From IMG/VR virus record IMGVR_UViG_3300040808_000874, positions 1-20,940 of that record: a stretch of DNA of 20,940 nucleotides. The stretch is one strand, 5' to 3'. Source of the DNA: a virus. The notes under the pieces were generated by a model, which was not told the origin of the DNA, ran no database searches, and was given only the letters and a program-made list of their open reading frames with translations. Shown here piece by piece: positions 1 through 4,786 of this stretch (its first letter is position 1; each line of letters starts with the position of its first letter). The position numbers and the translations under genes are program-made.

Positions 1-250
1 TGGTTGACGTGAAGCATTGATTCTCCCCAGAGGGGAGGTCTAGCTGGTGGTAATACGGTGCATAGGCAAATTCATCCGTGCTTTTGCCTGCAGCCTTCCA
101 TATTTGGAACCACTCAGCATCGTGGCTGAGCAGCTCCGGTGGCATATCCTCTGCCAGTTGTTGAATCGCAGCACGTTGGTGCGGCTGCCCTGAGAAGCGG
201 TCGAAAAACTGATTGAGTTGCAGCATCGAAGCGGCCAACCAATCAAGCAT
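1..250 (-). CDS. Putative endolysin, C39-like cysteine peptidase (N-terminal part, cut by window edge)
   Basis: The reading frame opens at ATG 250 and runs without a stop for 83 codons to the left window edge, so only the N-terminus is seen. The start lies inside the last codons of the upstream 61-aa gene, an 8-base overlap typical of coupled phage genes. The protein begins MLDWLAASMLQLNQ and continues as an acidic helical stretch. Near the edge comes a YYHQLDLPSG motif followed by ENQCFTST. In papain-like C39-type peptidases used as phage lysins, a Q-L-D segment followed a few residues later by a Cys in an N-x-C-F/Y context marks the nucleophile. I infer that Cys79 is that residue. Position next to two small membrane proteins supports a lysis role. 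The catalytic His and Asp would lie outside the window, so this is a moderate call; an uncharacterised structural protein is the alternative. Confidence 0.55.
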   Translation of the reverse strand, partial: MLDWLAASMLQLNQFFDRFSGQPHQRAAIQQLAEDMPPELLSHDAEWFQIWKAAGKSTDEFAYAPYYHQLDLPSGENQCFTST

Positions 251-1898: not shown

Positions 1899-2599
1899 CC
1901 CTGTGGCCTAATCAGGCATTAGCGCAGGCCAATGCAACAGCAGCGCCAGTGGCCTCTAGTTCTGGGTCGGTGTCTAACCTCGCCGTGCAGCAGCTAACAG
2001 GTGCTTGGCCTACAGCACGTTTTAGCCAGGGCATTCAATGCCAAGGGCCAACACTAAACTTTTCGCCGTTTGTTACTGCCGGCAAGTCTTATGCCCTGCC
2101 GTTTGAAAGCACGATAAGAACCCCGTATTACGATCCCACCGACGATGACGAAAACGGCGTACCGGACAACCCAGGAAACATCCTCTACACACAAGAGATC
2201 CCGAGCCGTCAGAAAAATAACCACAACTGGAATTGGGGCTTTGGCATCACGCTATCAATGCCCTTAGATGGTGGCATTCAAGAACGCTGTAAGGCAGCGG
2301 CGGATACTGAAACCGCATTGCAGCGTCAGCTATTGGCCAACAAACGTTTGGACTTTGAGCTAAGCCGGTTGCGCCATTGCGGTGAGTTGGCACAAAAAGG
2401 AATTACGTTTAAGCCATCATCCCAATTTGCGATCATCTGCTCTGATGTGGCTTTAGTGCCGAAGCCTGGCCAGGTATTACCTCACCGGCATAGCATCACG
2501 GTTTCAAAGCCCGACGCAAAGCAAGTATTGCGCGGTTCCGGTCCCGCTGAGCCAGTCGCCGCTCCCATACCGATTCGACAGCAACCGTTTGCCCCCTAG
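1760..2599 (+). CDS. Secreted cysteine-containing protein, start codon uncertain (mature region from about 1925)
   Basis: The frame is open to the TAG at 2597-2599. The convincing protein begins with a basic run and a hydrophobic core, RRRKHHRHYLYLCAIALW, then PNQALAQANA, which looks like a signal peptidase site just before about 1925. No ATG, GTG or TTG lies in frame between 1763 and that site. The nearest starts are ATG 1760 and TTG 1727, which would put an improbable basic extension before the signal peptide. The frame is -1 relative to the upstream gene, so a frameshift fusion or a rare start (ATT, ATA or CTG) is possible. The mature part holds four Cys (QCQ, ERC, RHC, ICS), an acidic DPTDDDENGVPDN segment and a C-terminal half with LLANKRLDFELSRLRHCGE. 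From memory similar proteins occur in cyanophages. Function is unknown. Confidence 0.65.
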   Translation: MVTNHPRRQFSIRGKLFRPRHSDGHGHNPNHRRRKHHRHYLYLCAIALWPNQALAQANATAAPVASSSGSVSNLAVQQLTGAWPTARFSQGIQCQGPTLNFSPFVTAGKSYALPFESTIRTPYYDPTDDDENGVPDNPGNILYTQEIPSRQKNNHNWNWGFGITLSMPLDGGIQERCKAAADTETALQRQLLANKRLDFELSRLRHCGELAQKGITFKPSSQFAIICSDVALVPKPGQVLPHRHSITVSKPDAKQVLRGSGPAEPVAAPIPIRQQPFAP

Positions 2600-3167
2600 C
2601 GGTCTCCAGCTTTTTCATCACCTTTTTTACGGTTGGTTTGATCGTTTTCAGGATCAGTTCAGCCAAAGGTTTTGCCACCAGCGCAGAAGTAGTGGCAACC
2701 ACTGCAATAGTGGTGGTGGTGACAACGCTTCCCACATCTGGGAGCCCGTCGAGTGCCTGTTTGATAAATGGCGCCTCTGGCTGTGGCTGTGCTGTTGTCT
2801 GAGCTGGCGCCTCATCTGCTCTAGGTAATCTCGGGACTGTCGGTAATTGAGGGGTTGAGGGTTGTGAGTCCTCATCCTCATTTGTATTTGCCGGTGCCTT
2901 TGGTTCTGTAAATCTGAGTTCATTGGCGGTAAAGTCCATCGGCTCAAACGATGGAATCTGGCCCTCTGGGCAGGCGTAGCCAGTACGGGCAGGATCATCC
3001 CGCAGCAGGCTTGGATTCAGCTTTGCATCAGGGTGCACCGCCACACACCCTGGCATGTCAATGATTGGAAAGCCCAGCTCTAGCGTGACGCTTGAGGCCT
3101 GCGGGATGTTGTTGAGCGGCGGTATCTGCCGAACCTGAGGGATCCTGATAGACGGGATCTCAGGCAT
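2496..3167 (-). CDS. Pro-rich hypothetical membrane-associated protein (223 aa)
   Basis: ATG at 3167 overlaps the upstream stop by one base (TGATG). The N-terminal 80 residues are Pro/Ile-rich (MPEIPSIRIPQVRQIPPLNN), with two Cys (41 and 66) in a compact region ending CPEGQIPSFEPMDF. Residues 88-133 are an acidic, Pro/Gln-rich linker. Residues 147-165 (SVVTTTTIAVVATTSALVA) form one likely transmembrane helix. A strongly basic C-terminus follows (KKVMKKLETARG, then WERRLAQRDRNRAILALRRA). The layout suggests one membrane anchor with a basic cytoplasmic tail and an ordered N-terminal domain. From memory similar proteins occur in cyanophage genomes. The last 104 bases overlap the 3' end of the convergent plus-strand gene. 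Function is unknown. Confidence 0.75.
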   Translation of the reverse strand: MPEIPSIRIPQVRQIPPLNNIPQASSVTLELGFPIIDMPGCVAVHPDAKLNPSLLRDDPARTGYACPEGQIPSFEPMDFTANELRFTEPKAPANTNEDEDSQPSTPQLPTVPRLPRADEAPAQTTAQPQPEAPFIKQALDGLPDVGSVVTTTTIAVVATTSALVAKPLAELILKTIKPTVKKVMKKLETARGQTVAVESVWERRLAQRDRNRAILALRRALKP

Positions 3168-3391
3168 CAGAACGGCATAGCTGGGCCGGTAGCTTCAGGC
3201 AGCTTGGGCATCACATCTTTGATCTTGCCTTCTAGTTCGGCTTCGATGTGCTCAGTCACCTTGCCGCCGATGCGCTCCATGCTTTCATCCATGAAGTTAT
3301 CGAACTGCAGATAAGAGATCACCAGCGCTGCGGTCATAGAACCGCTGAGCAGGAAGCCGACAACGGCCATGGTGTCAATGATCTTGCGCAT
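3167..3391 (-). CDS. Small single-pass membrane protein (74 aa)
   Basis: I choose ATG 3391 (MRKIIDTMAVVGFLLSG) although the same frame stays open to 3595. The upstream 68 residues of that longer frame are low-quality sequence that overlaps a better 61-aa gene in another frame. Residues 8-29 are one hydrophobic helix with a basic start (MRK), so it is an N-terminal anchor or uncleaved signal. Residues 30-74 are acidic and amphipathic (ERIGGKVTEHIEAELEGKIK), ending PATGPAMPF-like (TGPAMPF). It starts 17 bases inside the upstream gene and ends in a 1-base overlap with the 223-aa gene, so the three are one translational unit. Function is unknown. Confidence 0.7.
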   Translation of the reverse strand: MRKIIDTMAVVGFLLSGSMTAALVISYLQFDNFMDESMERIGGKVTEHIEAELEGKIKDVMPKLPEATGPAMPF

Positions 3392-3560
3392 TGAGAATTG
3401 CCTTTTCGTTGGCGTATGGCGGGACTGTAAGGAACTGGAAGGCATCCTGCACATAAGGCAGTAACCAATCAGGCGGCCAACAGTATTGCCAGTTATCAGG
3501 GTTGGTAAAACAGGGCCAGACAACCACCCGCCAGAAGGCTGATAGGTAGTTGCTGGCCAC
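3375..3560 (-). CDS. Small Trp-rich hypothetical protein (61 aa)
   Basis: The start is GTG at 3560 (GTG GCC AGC AAC). The protein is unusually aromatic: five Trp, five Tyr and four Phe in 61 residues, with stretches FWRVVVWPC, NWQYCWPPDW and QDAFQFLTVPPYANE. Such composition is unlikely from a shadow frame, and the overlapping 142-aa frame here is Pro/Ser/Arg junk by comparison. The end (NAQDH) overlaps the ATG of the 74-aa membrane protein by 17 bases, supporting a coupled pair. A weak AGG lies about 7 bases upstream of the start; a TTG one codon earlier is an alternative start. Function is not recognised. Confidence 0.55.
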   Translation of the reverse strand: MASNYLSAFWRVVVWPCFTNPDNWQYCWPPDWLLPYVQDAFQFLTVPPYANEKAILNAQDH

Positions 3561-3575
3561 AATTGCCTGATCAGA

Positions 3576-3593
3576 GGCCCGCCGAAGCGGGCC
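3576..3593 (-). terminator. Strong GC hairpin with UUCG tetraloop (terminator-like, no U-tract)
   Basis: The minus-strand sequence GGCCCGCTTCGGCGGGCC forms a perfect 7-bp GC stem closed by C(UUCG)G, an extra-stable tetraloop. It starts 11 bases after the stop of the outer-membrane-like gene and ends 16 bases before the next GTG. No run of U follows (TCTGATCAGG), so it is not a standard rho-independent terminator. It may instead pause transcription, attenuate the downstream genes or protect the 3' end of the upstream message. Confidence 0.5.
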
Positions 3594-3603
3594 ATGCTGT
3601 CGC

Positions 3604-3963
3604 TCAGAACTTGTACTTAGAACCGAGCTTGAGGCCGTAGCTGTTGCTTTTGTCGCCAGTGGCCATGCTCACCTCGGTGTAAAGGTTGAGCTTGCCGTCT
3701 TTGGTGACAGGAGCGCTCAGGCCAGTTTTGGCAGAGAAGTTGTAATCAGTTTCCCCGCCTTCAGGAAACACAACCTGGGGACCGCCTTGGATGTACCAAG
3801 GGCCAGCCTCATAGCCGACGTGAGCATCAATGACGCCACCGCCAGAGGTTTGATTACCAGCAAAGCCAAGGTTGTATTCAGGGTTCACATAGAACCCATC
3901 AGCCATAGCGGCAGGTGCAGCAATTGCCATCAGAGCAATAGCAGCAGAAGCAGCCTTAATCAT
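3604..3963 (-). CDS. Outer-membrane-like beta-barrel protein with signal peptide (119 aa)
   Basis: I place the start at ATG 3963 (MIKAASAAIALMAIAAPAAM), since this gives a classical Sec signal peptide with likely cleavage at A-M-A before D22. The frame extends 9 codons upstream, but those residues (MRGCCYPTF) do not fit. The mature ~98 residues are built of alternating aromatic/polar beta strands with Gly-rich turns (DGFYVNPEYNLGFAGNQ, then HVGYEAGPWYIQGGPQ). It ends in GLKLGSKYKF with a terminal Phe, as in many outer-membrane beta-barrels, whose last residue acts as the assembly signal. It is short for a full 8-strand barrel. No cysteines are in the mature part. A secreted outer-membrane protein inside a phage late operon suggests host-surface modification or superinfection exclusion, by inference only. 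Confidence 0.75.
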   Translation of the reverse strand: MIKAASAAIALMAIAAPAAMADGFYVNPEYNLGFAGNQTSGGGVIDAHVGYEAGPWYIQGGPQVVFPEGGETDYNFSAKTGLSAPVTKDGKLNLYTEVSMATGDKSNSYGLKLGSKYKF

Positions 3964-3996
3964 GAATGTTGGATAACAACAACCACGCAATTTTAC

Positions 3997-4158
3997 CTAT
4001 GAATTGTCGTTATCCGGTTTGAAAACTGGATGCTCTAATGGATCCTTGCCAGTGCGTTCGATAGCAACAGCGCGGCGGTAATACCAGCAATCTGTTTTAC
4101 CCGCAGCTTCCAGCGCTTGTTTTACCTTGCGCCAGTTGTTGCGGGTATGTCTATCCAC
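3997..4158 (-). CDS. Small hypothetical protein, GTG start (53 aa)
   Basis: The reading frame runs from GTG 4158 to TAG 3997-3999. The GTG shares its G with the stop of the upstream 45-aa gene (TAGTG), the same one-base coupling seen at 4295, 4786 and 4995. The protein is VDRHTRNNWRKVKQALEAAG followed by KTDCWYYRRAVAIERTGKD and an acidic/Pro end. It is basic and helical in the N-terminal half, with one Cys and a WYY aromatic patch. Length, composition and coupling support a real gene. It is not recognised, although I recall short proteins of this type in cyanophages. DNA or RNA binding is conceivable from the charge. Confidence 0.6.
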   Translation of the reverse strand: MDRHTRNNWRKVKQALEAAGKTDCWYYRRAVAIERTGKDPLEHPVFKPDNDNS

Positions 4159-4295
4159 TAGCCTCGGCCTTGCCCCCGGTACTTCTTTTTATTTTTGCGC
4201 GGGAGCGAGTGTTGTCCCGCACCTTGATGGCTTTTCTTCGGTTTTCCGGGCTTATGTTCAATGCGACCTAATGCGGTCTTTGATTTAGCAGCCAT
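4158..4295 (-). CDS. Tiny basic protein (45 aa)
   Basis: ATG 4295 shares its A with the TAA of the upstream fiber gene (TAATG); the frame ends at TAG 4158-4160. The 45 residues begin MAAKSKTALGRIEHKPGKPK and end RKNKKKYRGQGRG. There are about fifteen Lys/Arg and only one Glu, with Gly and Pro throughout, so it should be an extended polycation without a folded core. Such proteins bind nucleic acid or acidic partners. The 3' stop is coupled to the next gene by one base. From memory similar short basic proteins are present in T4-like cyanophages; this is unverified. Function is unknown. Confidence 0.6.
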   Translation of the reverse strand: MAAKSKTALGRIEHKPGKPKKSHQGAGQHSLPRKNKKKYRGQGRG

Positions 4296-4786
4296 TAGCC
4301 ACCCATGTTGAGCAGAAGTTGAGCGCTAATCCTAGTGCTGCTTTCGACGTAATACACCAGCACGTCAACCTTTCCGCTAGTGCTGGTTGCAGTCGGTGCA
4401 GTGCCGCCAGCAAACTTCCAATAAGAGCCAAAGGCGACGGTATAAGAACCGCTGTAGCTAATAGCAATTGCGCCGCTCTGGCCTGCGGTCAGGTTGGACG
4501 GGTTGGCAATGGTTGTATTGGTGCCAAGCGAAACAGAGAAGTTGTTAGCCGTAGCAAAATTTGGCGTGATTGTGGCTGCAGAAGTAAGGCTGGAAACTGT
4601 GCCGCGCTGCGCCGCCGTAAAGGTTTGAGCCTTGGCAATTGCAGCCAATGGAAAACCGCCAGCTGTGCTGCCGTCATGGACGACGGCTACATCTTTGTCA
4701 GTGTCAACCGTGACCTCGCCAGCTGCGCCAGTAAAACTTGAATGCTGGCTAGTCGTGCCGCGTCGGAGTTGAATCTGCGTAGCCAT
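4295..4786 (-). CDS. Short tail-fiber protein with duplicated C-terminal module (163 aa)
   Basis: ATG 4786 overlaps the upstream TAA by one base. Residues 1-48 (MATQIQLRRGTTSQHSSFTG, then GEVTVDTDKDVAVVHDG) resemble the small N-terminal beta domain at the head of many phage fiber and Mtd-type receptor-binding proteins, with the pattern Q-x-RRGT, E-x-x-x-D, and V-HDG. Residues 54-163 are closely similar to the end of the 258-aa fiber at 10145-10921. Shared blocks include NNFS, ANPSNLTAGQSG and FGSYW, plus AQRGT near the start of the module. I infer a tail-tip or side-fiber subunit whose C-terminal module faces the host. No chaperone domain is seen. Host target is unknown. Confidence 0.75.
   Translation of the reverse strand: MATQIQLRRGTTSQHSSFTGAAGEVTVDTDKDVAVVHDGSTAGGFPLAAIAKAQTFTAAQRGTVSSLTSAATITPNFATANNFSVSLGTNTTIANPSNLTAGQSGAIAISYSGSYTVAFGSYWKFAGGTAPTATSTSGKVDVLVYYVESSTRISAQLLLNMGG

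Follow-up and report, generated by a model that had tools for sequence, protein, structure and literature searches.

A cyanophage outer-membrane-type protein with six predicted strands, and the division of its family into two charge-reversed types

The minus-strand gene at 3604-3963 of the window (the whole 20,940-nucleotide stretch of viral DNA that was analysed) encodes a protein that we assign, almost without reservation, to the Pfam family PF24653, "Cyanophage outer membrane protein like beta barrel domain." The match covers the full length of the profile (positions 1-122 of 122) and scores 95.1 bits against a cut-off of 27 (4.8e-27); PHROG 417, an entry without a function, also matches. 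Because the window protein is a full-length member, the family is not new, and it has already been named barrel-like by the Pfam curators. What seems to be new here is the six-strand make-up of the protein, along with a division of the family into two types with reversed inner charges, points that we did not recognise as treated in any paper of the literature searched, which was available in part and had most subscription papers outside its scope. Taken as a whole, our best explanation is that the gene encodes a type A PF24653 outer-membrane protein that changes envelope traffic during infection, a reading to which we give an even chance.

The reading frame begins with an ATG at 3963 and ends with a TGA stop at 3604-3606. 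Its parts are listed below, with strands placed from an AlphaFold2 model (DSSP) and alignment columns.

3604..3963, minus strand: type A PF24653 (Phage_OMP) gene, 119 aa, residues 1-119 on profile positions 1-122 of 122
3901..3963, minus strand: Sec-type signal peptide, residues 1-21, with predicted cleavage between AMA and D (from the sequence; low-confidence model helix at residues 2-13)
3859..3894, minus strand: predicted strand 1, residues 24-35, inward Y25, N27, E29, N31
3805..3852, minus strand: predicted strand 2, residues 38-53, inward D46, H48, G50, E52
3766..3798, minus strand: predicted strand 3, residues 56-66, inward Y57 (mortise-tenon Tyr), Q59, G61
3709..3747, minus strand: predicted strand 4, residues 73-85, inward K79, G81 (mortise-tenon Gly), S83
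3661..3690, minus strand: predicted strand 5, residues 92-101, inward Y95, E97, S99
3613..3642, minus strand: predicted strand 6, residues 108-117, inward G110, K112, G114, K116, then Phe119

The plus-strand reading of the same interval is stop-free too, and the sole listed open reading frame in that frame lies at 3787-4002 (71 aa, TTG start). In the encoded protein, a Lys near the N terminus is followed by a hydrophobic stretch whose best 10-residue Kyte-Doolittle mean is 2.55, and a cleavage-type site past residue 21 leaves 98 mature residues that end in Phe. We compared these features across a family set that started as 486 ORF hits. Of these, 16 were left out because a contig end cut them or no Met start fitted, and merging 111 duplicates left 359 unique sequences. 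A basic residue is present at positions 2 to 5 in 358 of these unique sequences, a cleavage-type motif lies ahead of strand 1 in 355, and the last residue is Phe in 356. An earlier, sequence-only reading of this DNA had described, without naming a strand, a signal peptide and about 98 mature residues with a terminal Phe, and both descriptions hold for the window protein.

That reading had also described a strand-alternating mature sequence with aromatic girdles, a pattern that the family alignment bears out. Comparing outward with inward positions, the fraction of FILVMWY residues differed by 0.50 and that of DEKRNQH by -0.42, and each contrast was reached by 0 of 2,000 within-strand shuffles, which were allowed the best of 64 phase choices. 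Outward positions were more variable (entropy contrast of 0.70, reached by 15 of 2,000 shuffles). The outward ends of the strands carry aromatic residues, such as those at positions 34, 51, 56, 109, 117, and 119, and each of the inward glycines at positions 50, 61, 81, and 114 is present in at least 94% of sequences (weighted). On the modelled strands, the inner face is polar and conserved and the outer face is nearly charge-free, with 0.01 acidic and 0.01 basic outward residues per type A sequence and 0.01 and 0.34, respectively, per type B sequence.

The AlphaFold2 model of the window protein, built with 82 sequences, has six strands (mean pLDDT of 84.8, pTM of 0.67, block pLDDT of 85-96 from residue 21 onward), and a type B model likewise has six (pLDDT of 85.7). 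When the window model was compared with known structures using VIA-align, the first 17 rows were outer-membrane proteins or designed membrane barrels, among them the OprF barrel (Z 11.0, 2.4 A over 93 residues), the designed barrel 6x9z (Z 10.1, 1.5 A over 83 residues), and OmpA (Z 9.8, 2.8 A over 90 residues); its best matches are to 8-stranded barrels, 6x9z included, and avidins appeared at Z 7.4-7.9. For the type B model the matches were the designed barrel TMB10_163 (Z 9.6, 1.6 A over 88), OpcA (Z 9.3, 2.0 A over 96), 6x9z (Z 9.1, 3.4 A), and autotransporters (Z 8.0-8.4, 2.4 A over 101), with Z values that are near ties. The difference between the two models' matches perhaps reflects a sheet of uncertain curvature, which may be open. 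Foldseek returned no PDB match at E <= 0.001 for the window model, and in a viral library 10 rows passed 0.001, of which four were named PF24653, two were named "DUF680," and four were nameless. By sequence, the window protein had no PDB relatives at E <= 10 and scored 19.7 bits against OMP_b-brl (PF13505), below the cut-off of 28.7. Family membership, the fold model with its outer-membrane barrel matches, the pattern of the two faces, and the C-terminal Phe all speak for the earlier claim that the protein is outer-membrane-like, and we regard an outer-membrane location, as modelled, as highly probable.

The structural matches also suggest which strands are present. The matched chain ranges start at 33 in 6x9z, 38 in OprF, and 46 in OmpA, positions that we take to be past the first hairpin of each structure. 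Positions 57 and 81 of the window protein lie on model strands 3 and 4, which would be strands 5 and 6 if the first hairpin were missing, and they are occupied by Tyr and Gly in 353 of the 359 unique sequences (the others being G/Y in 2, G/F in 1, S/N in 2, and F/G in 1). In eight-stranded outer-membrane proteins, a lumen-facing Tyr on strand 5 lies over a Gly on strand 6 (Y80-G112 in OmpX and Y94-G126 in OmpA; PMC5542473). In each of four covariance runs, the Tyr57-Gly81 pair ranked first or second among the couplings, and the three cases in which it is reciprocally swapped come from S-SBP1, a T7-like phage, and two IMG/VR contigs retrieved with the type B query. Because the match ranges and the Tyr-Gly pair agree, we equate the six strands with strands 3-8 of an OmpA/OmpX-type barrel; OmpX itself reportedly still folds after deletion of hairpins, provided that the central one is kept (PMC5542473). 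That the chain has six strands is, in our judgment, likely.

Whether such a sheet closes was addressed with mean-field covariance (359 sequences, Neff of about 62). The first run recovered hairpins 2-3, 3-4, 4-5, and 5-6 (z of 3.7 to 7.1), with hairpin 1-2 (z of 2.6) and the closing pair of strands 1 and 6 (i+j of 141-143, z of 2.7) equally weak. The strand 1-strand 6 signal in type A alone was z 1.9-2.0. With five-residue registers, strand pairs 2-6 and 3-5 ranked above the closing pair 1-6, and a covariance run coupled E52 to K116. Charged side chains apparently fill the lumen, and this speaks against a monomer with an open pore. No natural fusion of two copies was seen, in that no ORF among 421 loci had two domain hits at 1e-3. 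PMC6340704 states eight strands for the smallest single-chain barrel and reports no clear case of strand deletion; a six-stranded outer-membrane protein, if true, would lie below that stated minimum. The sequence-only reading had raised both a small barrel and an oligomer, which is the right pair of alternatives, and we lean slightly toward an oligomer rather than a closed monomer. More tentatively, this could be the first natural outer-membrane barrel made of six-stranded chains, an OmpA/OmpX-type barrel minus its first hairpin, arranged as a six-stranded mini-barrel or as 6+6, and types A and B, as tandem genes with opposite inner charges, could make up a mixed barrel whose composition shifts with phosphate stress.

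Relatives are common in marine cyanophage DNA. A tblastn search (E <= 1) found them in 385 of 50,697 phage records, every one at less than 60% identity, with at least 80% of the query covered in 258; by name, these records are Synechococcus (290), Cyanophage (68), Prochlorococcus (22), uncultured (3), and Marine (2). In IMG/VR, 27 loci matched the window protein, and queries from other branches of the family gave 24, at least 589, 182, 162, 36, and at least 577 confirmed stretches, from which we took at most 80 loci per query. Many cyanophage relatives were found by the homology search, and none of those seen is known as a cytoplasmic protein; nor was a barrel-less fold predicted, with the closure of the sheet uncertain. 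The label "DUF680" attached to several of them stems from record annotations (for example, PSSM2_246/247 of P-SSM2 and Syn19_158); PF24653 fits instead, and DUF680 gave no Pfam row at E <= 10 for the window protein or at E <= 1 for six other members scanned.

Cellular genomes were searched as well. The window protein found no relative in genome contigs, the family alignment found five contigs of metagenome-assembled genomes (MAGs; L422 to L426), and 14 control genomes held no PF24653 copy. A host origin was considered for the five and set aside, since four of them look like cyanophage DNA in the wrong bin: L423 to L426 align to phage loci, L423 and L424 carry psbA, and L423 and L426 carry a T7-like capsid gene. 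On L422 only the barrel gene is visible. Given this resemblance, no cellular homologue is established. As an aside on binning, L423 to L426 are filed under Porticoccaceae, Flavobacteriales, Rhodobacteraceae, and TMED88 MAGs, with long alignments to phage loci and psbA, capsid, or hli matches.

The family is split into two types whose inner charges are reversed, and the window protein is type A. At positions 29/79/97/112, 270 of the 359 unique sequences have E/K/E/K (type A), 84 have K/E/K/E (type B), and 5 have other combinations. Inward positions hold 4.2 acidic and 3.1 basic residues per type A sequence (net, -1.1) and 7.6 acidic and 8.9 basic residues per type B sequence (net, +1.3). The 274 E97 sequences group in the tree without any K97 sequence among them (support, 0.91). 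The charge reversal was probably one ancient event, and the 354 sequences are for that reason not independent proofs.

The two types also differ in their neighbours. For neighbour and Pho box counts, type was called from the residue eight from the C terminus (P-SSP3 is not typable this way), and for inner-charge counts it was called from position 97; neighbours were counted over 486 copies, 11 of them not typable, at loci that were not de-duplicated by contig. On this basis, pstS lies no more than 600 bp downstream on the same strand of 95 of 110 type B copies, and psbA lies within the same downstream distance of 77 of 365 type A copies. Wherever a locus holds a single A copy and a single B copy (69 loci), the two share a strand and A comes first, 16-241 bp away from B. 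In line with these tandem loci, pstS is found within 1.5 kb of 71 of the 365 type A copies. P-SSM2 has the order PSSM2_246 (A), PSSM2_247 (B), pstS, with both copies placed under cluster T4-GC 241, and S-TIM5 and S-SCSM1 also have the order A, B, pstS. Syn19_158 (B) is followed by pstS, and a second, untyped copy lies 31 kb away. Among 83 loci best matching the S-RIM8 type A copy, 31 have nrdC within 1.5 kb.

The repeats of a Pho box are spaced by 3. We scored up to 220 bp upstream of each gene for two repeats of PyTTAAPyPyT/A (PMC10976474, which otherwise has no bearing on this gene), with a maximum score of 16. Scores of at least 14 were found for 62 of 83 type B genes versus 12% of first-order shuffles, and scores of at least 15 for 36 of 83 versus 0.6%. 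In three groups of type A genes, scores of at least 14 were found for 0 of 26, 3 of 45, and 13 of 193, compared to 0, 5.6, and 4.6% of shuffles. After thinning to <75% identity, the counts were 9 of 11 for type B and 2 of 53 for type A; after thinning to <65%, they were 6 of 8 and 1 of 25, with one of the 6 (L329_+_228) counted as B by its C-terminal residue, not B by position 97, and grouped with type A in the tree. PSSM2_246, a type A gene, scores 14 of 16. The best 19-base score for the window gene is 11 of 16, short of a Pho box.

The A/B split suggests that the description "phosphate-limitation gene" fits type B only. Zeng and Chisholm reportedly found in 2012 that P-SSM2 g247 and pstS are induced under phosphate starvation, and PSSM2_247 is type B in the present typing. 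The printed label "DUF680/PhCOG173, phosphate-limitation" appears to lump the two types together. A DUF680 cluster (PH1168) is over-represented at BATS along with PstS (PMC3686209), and DUF680 is among the genes found in 15 of the genomes compared in PMC3037559. In S-TIM4 evolved on Synechococcus WH8102, ORF224 ("DUF680," PhCOG173) acquired 13 different mutations, many of them expected to be disruptive, at a cumulative frequency of about 100% per population, and the authors considered it a non-structural nutrient-response gene lost under replete conditions (PMC6224464). A family gene thus appears to be dispensable or costly in one lytic phage. By our typing, ORF224 is type A, lies beside nrdC, is the sole PF24653 copy in its genome, and scores no higher than 12 of 16 for a Pho box; its phosphate label may therefore have been carried over from type B. 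Since ORF224 is a type A gene without a Pho box, the split would alter how the S-TIM4 selection result is read.

The window gene has a setting of its own. Preceding the barrel gene is a lambda-like module of tail genes, which encode the tail terminator, the major tail protein, the tape measure, the minor tail proteins, the tail assembly protein, and J and are followed by fibre genes, in agreement with the late-operon setting given in the sequence-only reading. The genes adjoining it are as follows.

4295..4786, minus strand: tail-region gene upstream of the barrel gene, matching phrog_9648 tail protein (2.2e-17)
3375..3560, minus strand: phrog_703 gene, next downstream, beside the barrel gene in 39/40 window-clade loci
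3167..3391, minus strand: phrog_568 gene, 74 aa, in 36/40 window-clade loci
2496..3167, minus strand: phrog_570 gene, 223 aa, in 26/40 window-clade loci

The window clade is siphovirus-like and contains 28 unique sequences (support, 0.992). A survey of window-clade and S-RIM8-type loci, made after setting aside 8 duplicate loci, places the barrel gene upstream of a phrog_703 match, at 47-113 bp, in 39 of 40 window-clade loci, with phrog_568 next in 36. In the tree, the clade stands beside copies that came mainly from the T7-like S-RIP1 query (support, 0.918), which suggests transfer of the barrel gene between phage types. J of the window is closest to those of the Prochlorococcus phages MED4-117 and P-HS2/MED4-184 (42-43% identity), and MED4-117 and P-HS2 have 0 PF24653 matches each. 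The neighbours of the window gene are tail genes and phrog_703, phrog_568, and phrog_570, with no pstS or psbA among them. Across 2450-4400 we counted no promoter-like site and a single terminator-like site, on the plus strand; both counts are below the shuffle means.

Several other features of these loci were observed. Near the tail-fibre end of MED4-117 and P-HS2, where window-clade phages have the barrel gene, there is a DUF7936 (PF25590) gene (L216 10275-10610 and L217 2687-3022). The "plasmid stability" label of phrog_568 is unlikely for a 74-aa protein that has a hydrophobic N terminus and is kept in cyanosiphovirus-like loci. Small plus-strand genes at 970-2599 match phrog_564, phrog_650, and phrog_848, the first two with signal-peptide-like N termini; matches to these three also occur in a minority of T4-like-branch loci, and a phrog_564 match is present at the P-SSM2 locus and at 8 of 83 S-RIM8-type loci. 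An open-ended ORF at 2-250 (minus strand) has a weak endolysin match (phrog_28234, 6.7e-6).

The position of the gene bears on a function that the sequence-only reading had put forward, namely, that the barrel could block superinfection, for which it might alter or hide a surface receptor. Small phage-made outer-membrane proteins are known to exclude superinfection or mask receptors, and a place after J and the tail-fibre genes recalls lom of phage lambda, which is phage encoded and located near J. The predicted outer loops, however, are short (residues 34-44, 66-73, and 101-108), and Ail_Lom gave no Pfam row at E <= 10 for the window protein, in a search whose HMMER filters drop most weak matches. 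Relatives of the gene adjoin psbA, hli, nrdC, or pstS, type B is associated with pstS and with Pho boxes, and S-TIM4 appears to do without its copy or to pay for it, in a family treated as nutrient-linked (PMC6224464). Superinfection exclusion is neither supported nor refuted; of the earlier interpretation, the outer-membrane part stands, and we rate the exclusion part as possible yet unlikely.

It is improbable that the protein is a minor component carried in the virion. LC-MS of particles purified on CsCl did detect the divergent member S-SZBM1_90 (2 peptides, 25.4% coverage; PMC9146016), but outer-membrane fragments could co-purify with particles, and a signal peptide would be unusual for a virion protein. 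Moreover, the S-TIM4 member was called non-structural, and populations with disruptive mutations in it took over on WH8102 (PMC6224464). S-SZBM1_90 (L225 3051-3419) has a type B-like Glu in its last strand, yet a glutaredoxin neighbour as type A often has. A little less probable still is a lysis aid that weakens the outer membrane late in infection: the gene sits in a late run with an endolysin-like fragment at the other end of the window, but the other phages viewed keep it with psbA, nrdC, hli, or pstS, and its loss was favoured in S-TIM4 on WH8102 (PMC6224464). A decoy that stays in or blocks host BamA, as an incomplete barrel with a strong beta-signal might, would suit the six strands, the near-universal Phe, and the uncertain closure of the sheet, but is very improbable given a conserved inner network and mortise-tenon pair that speak for a stable folded product. 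Equally improbable is a soluble, avidin-like periplasmic barrel, to which the avidin rows in VIA point and against which stand the outer face with 0.01 acidic residues per sequence, the Phe in 356 of 359 sequences, and the 17 membrane-barrel rows ranked first.

We return to a type A outer-membrane protein acting on envelope traffic. Its signal peptide would export it, with a Phe beta-signal at its C terminus, and the predicted product is a six-stranded antiparallel sheet, nearly charge-free outside and with a polar, salt-bridge-type inside, equivalent to strands 3-8 of an OmpA/OmpX-like barrel. The BAM machinery of the infected cyanobacterium would insert it into the outer membrane, where it may close by itself into a minimal barrel of six strands or join a second chain (6+6, for example), and so change what crosses the envelope during infection. 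Its charge-reversed type B twin would act under phosphate stress together with PstS, and type A would act as a regular part of infection, its genes lying close to psbA, hli, and nrdC in other phages and after the tail-fibre genes here. A role in nutrient or envelope traffic falls just short of an even chance; we infer it from the link between type B and PstS and from the selection published for S-TIM4, and the nutrient link comes from relatives because the window gene has neither a Pho box nor a pstS or psbA neighbour.

Among known systems, the closest is PF24653 Phage_OMP/PHROG 417 itself ("DUF680," PhCOG173, T4-GC 241), which the window protein matches over its full length and at the same length. 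Within that family, the window gene belongs to a siphovirus-like clade with its own setting and is type A without a Pho box or adjoining pstS. OmpA, OmpX, and OprF share with it the fold match to what we read as strands 3-8, the Tyr-Gly mortise-tenon pair, and the C-terminal Phe, whereas the window protein has two predicted strands fewer, short outer loops, and a PF13505 score below the cut-off. Lambda Lom, of the Lom/Ail group, is likewise a small phage-encoded outer-membrane protein near J; Lom/Ail proteins have 8 strands and long loops, and the window protein gave no Ail_Lom Pfam row at E <= 10. For closure by several chains, the models are TolC and YadA/Hia, split barrels in which each of 3 chains contributes 4 strands, and from these the window protein differs in bringing 6 predicted strands per chain.
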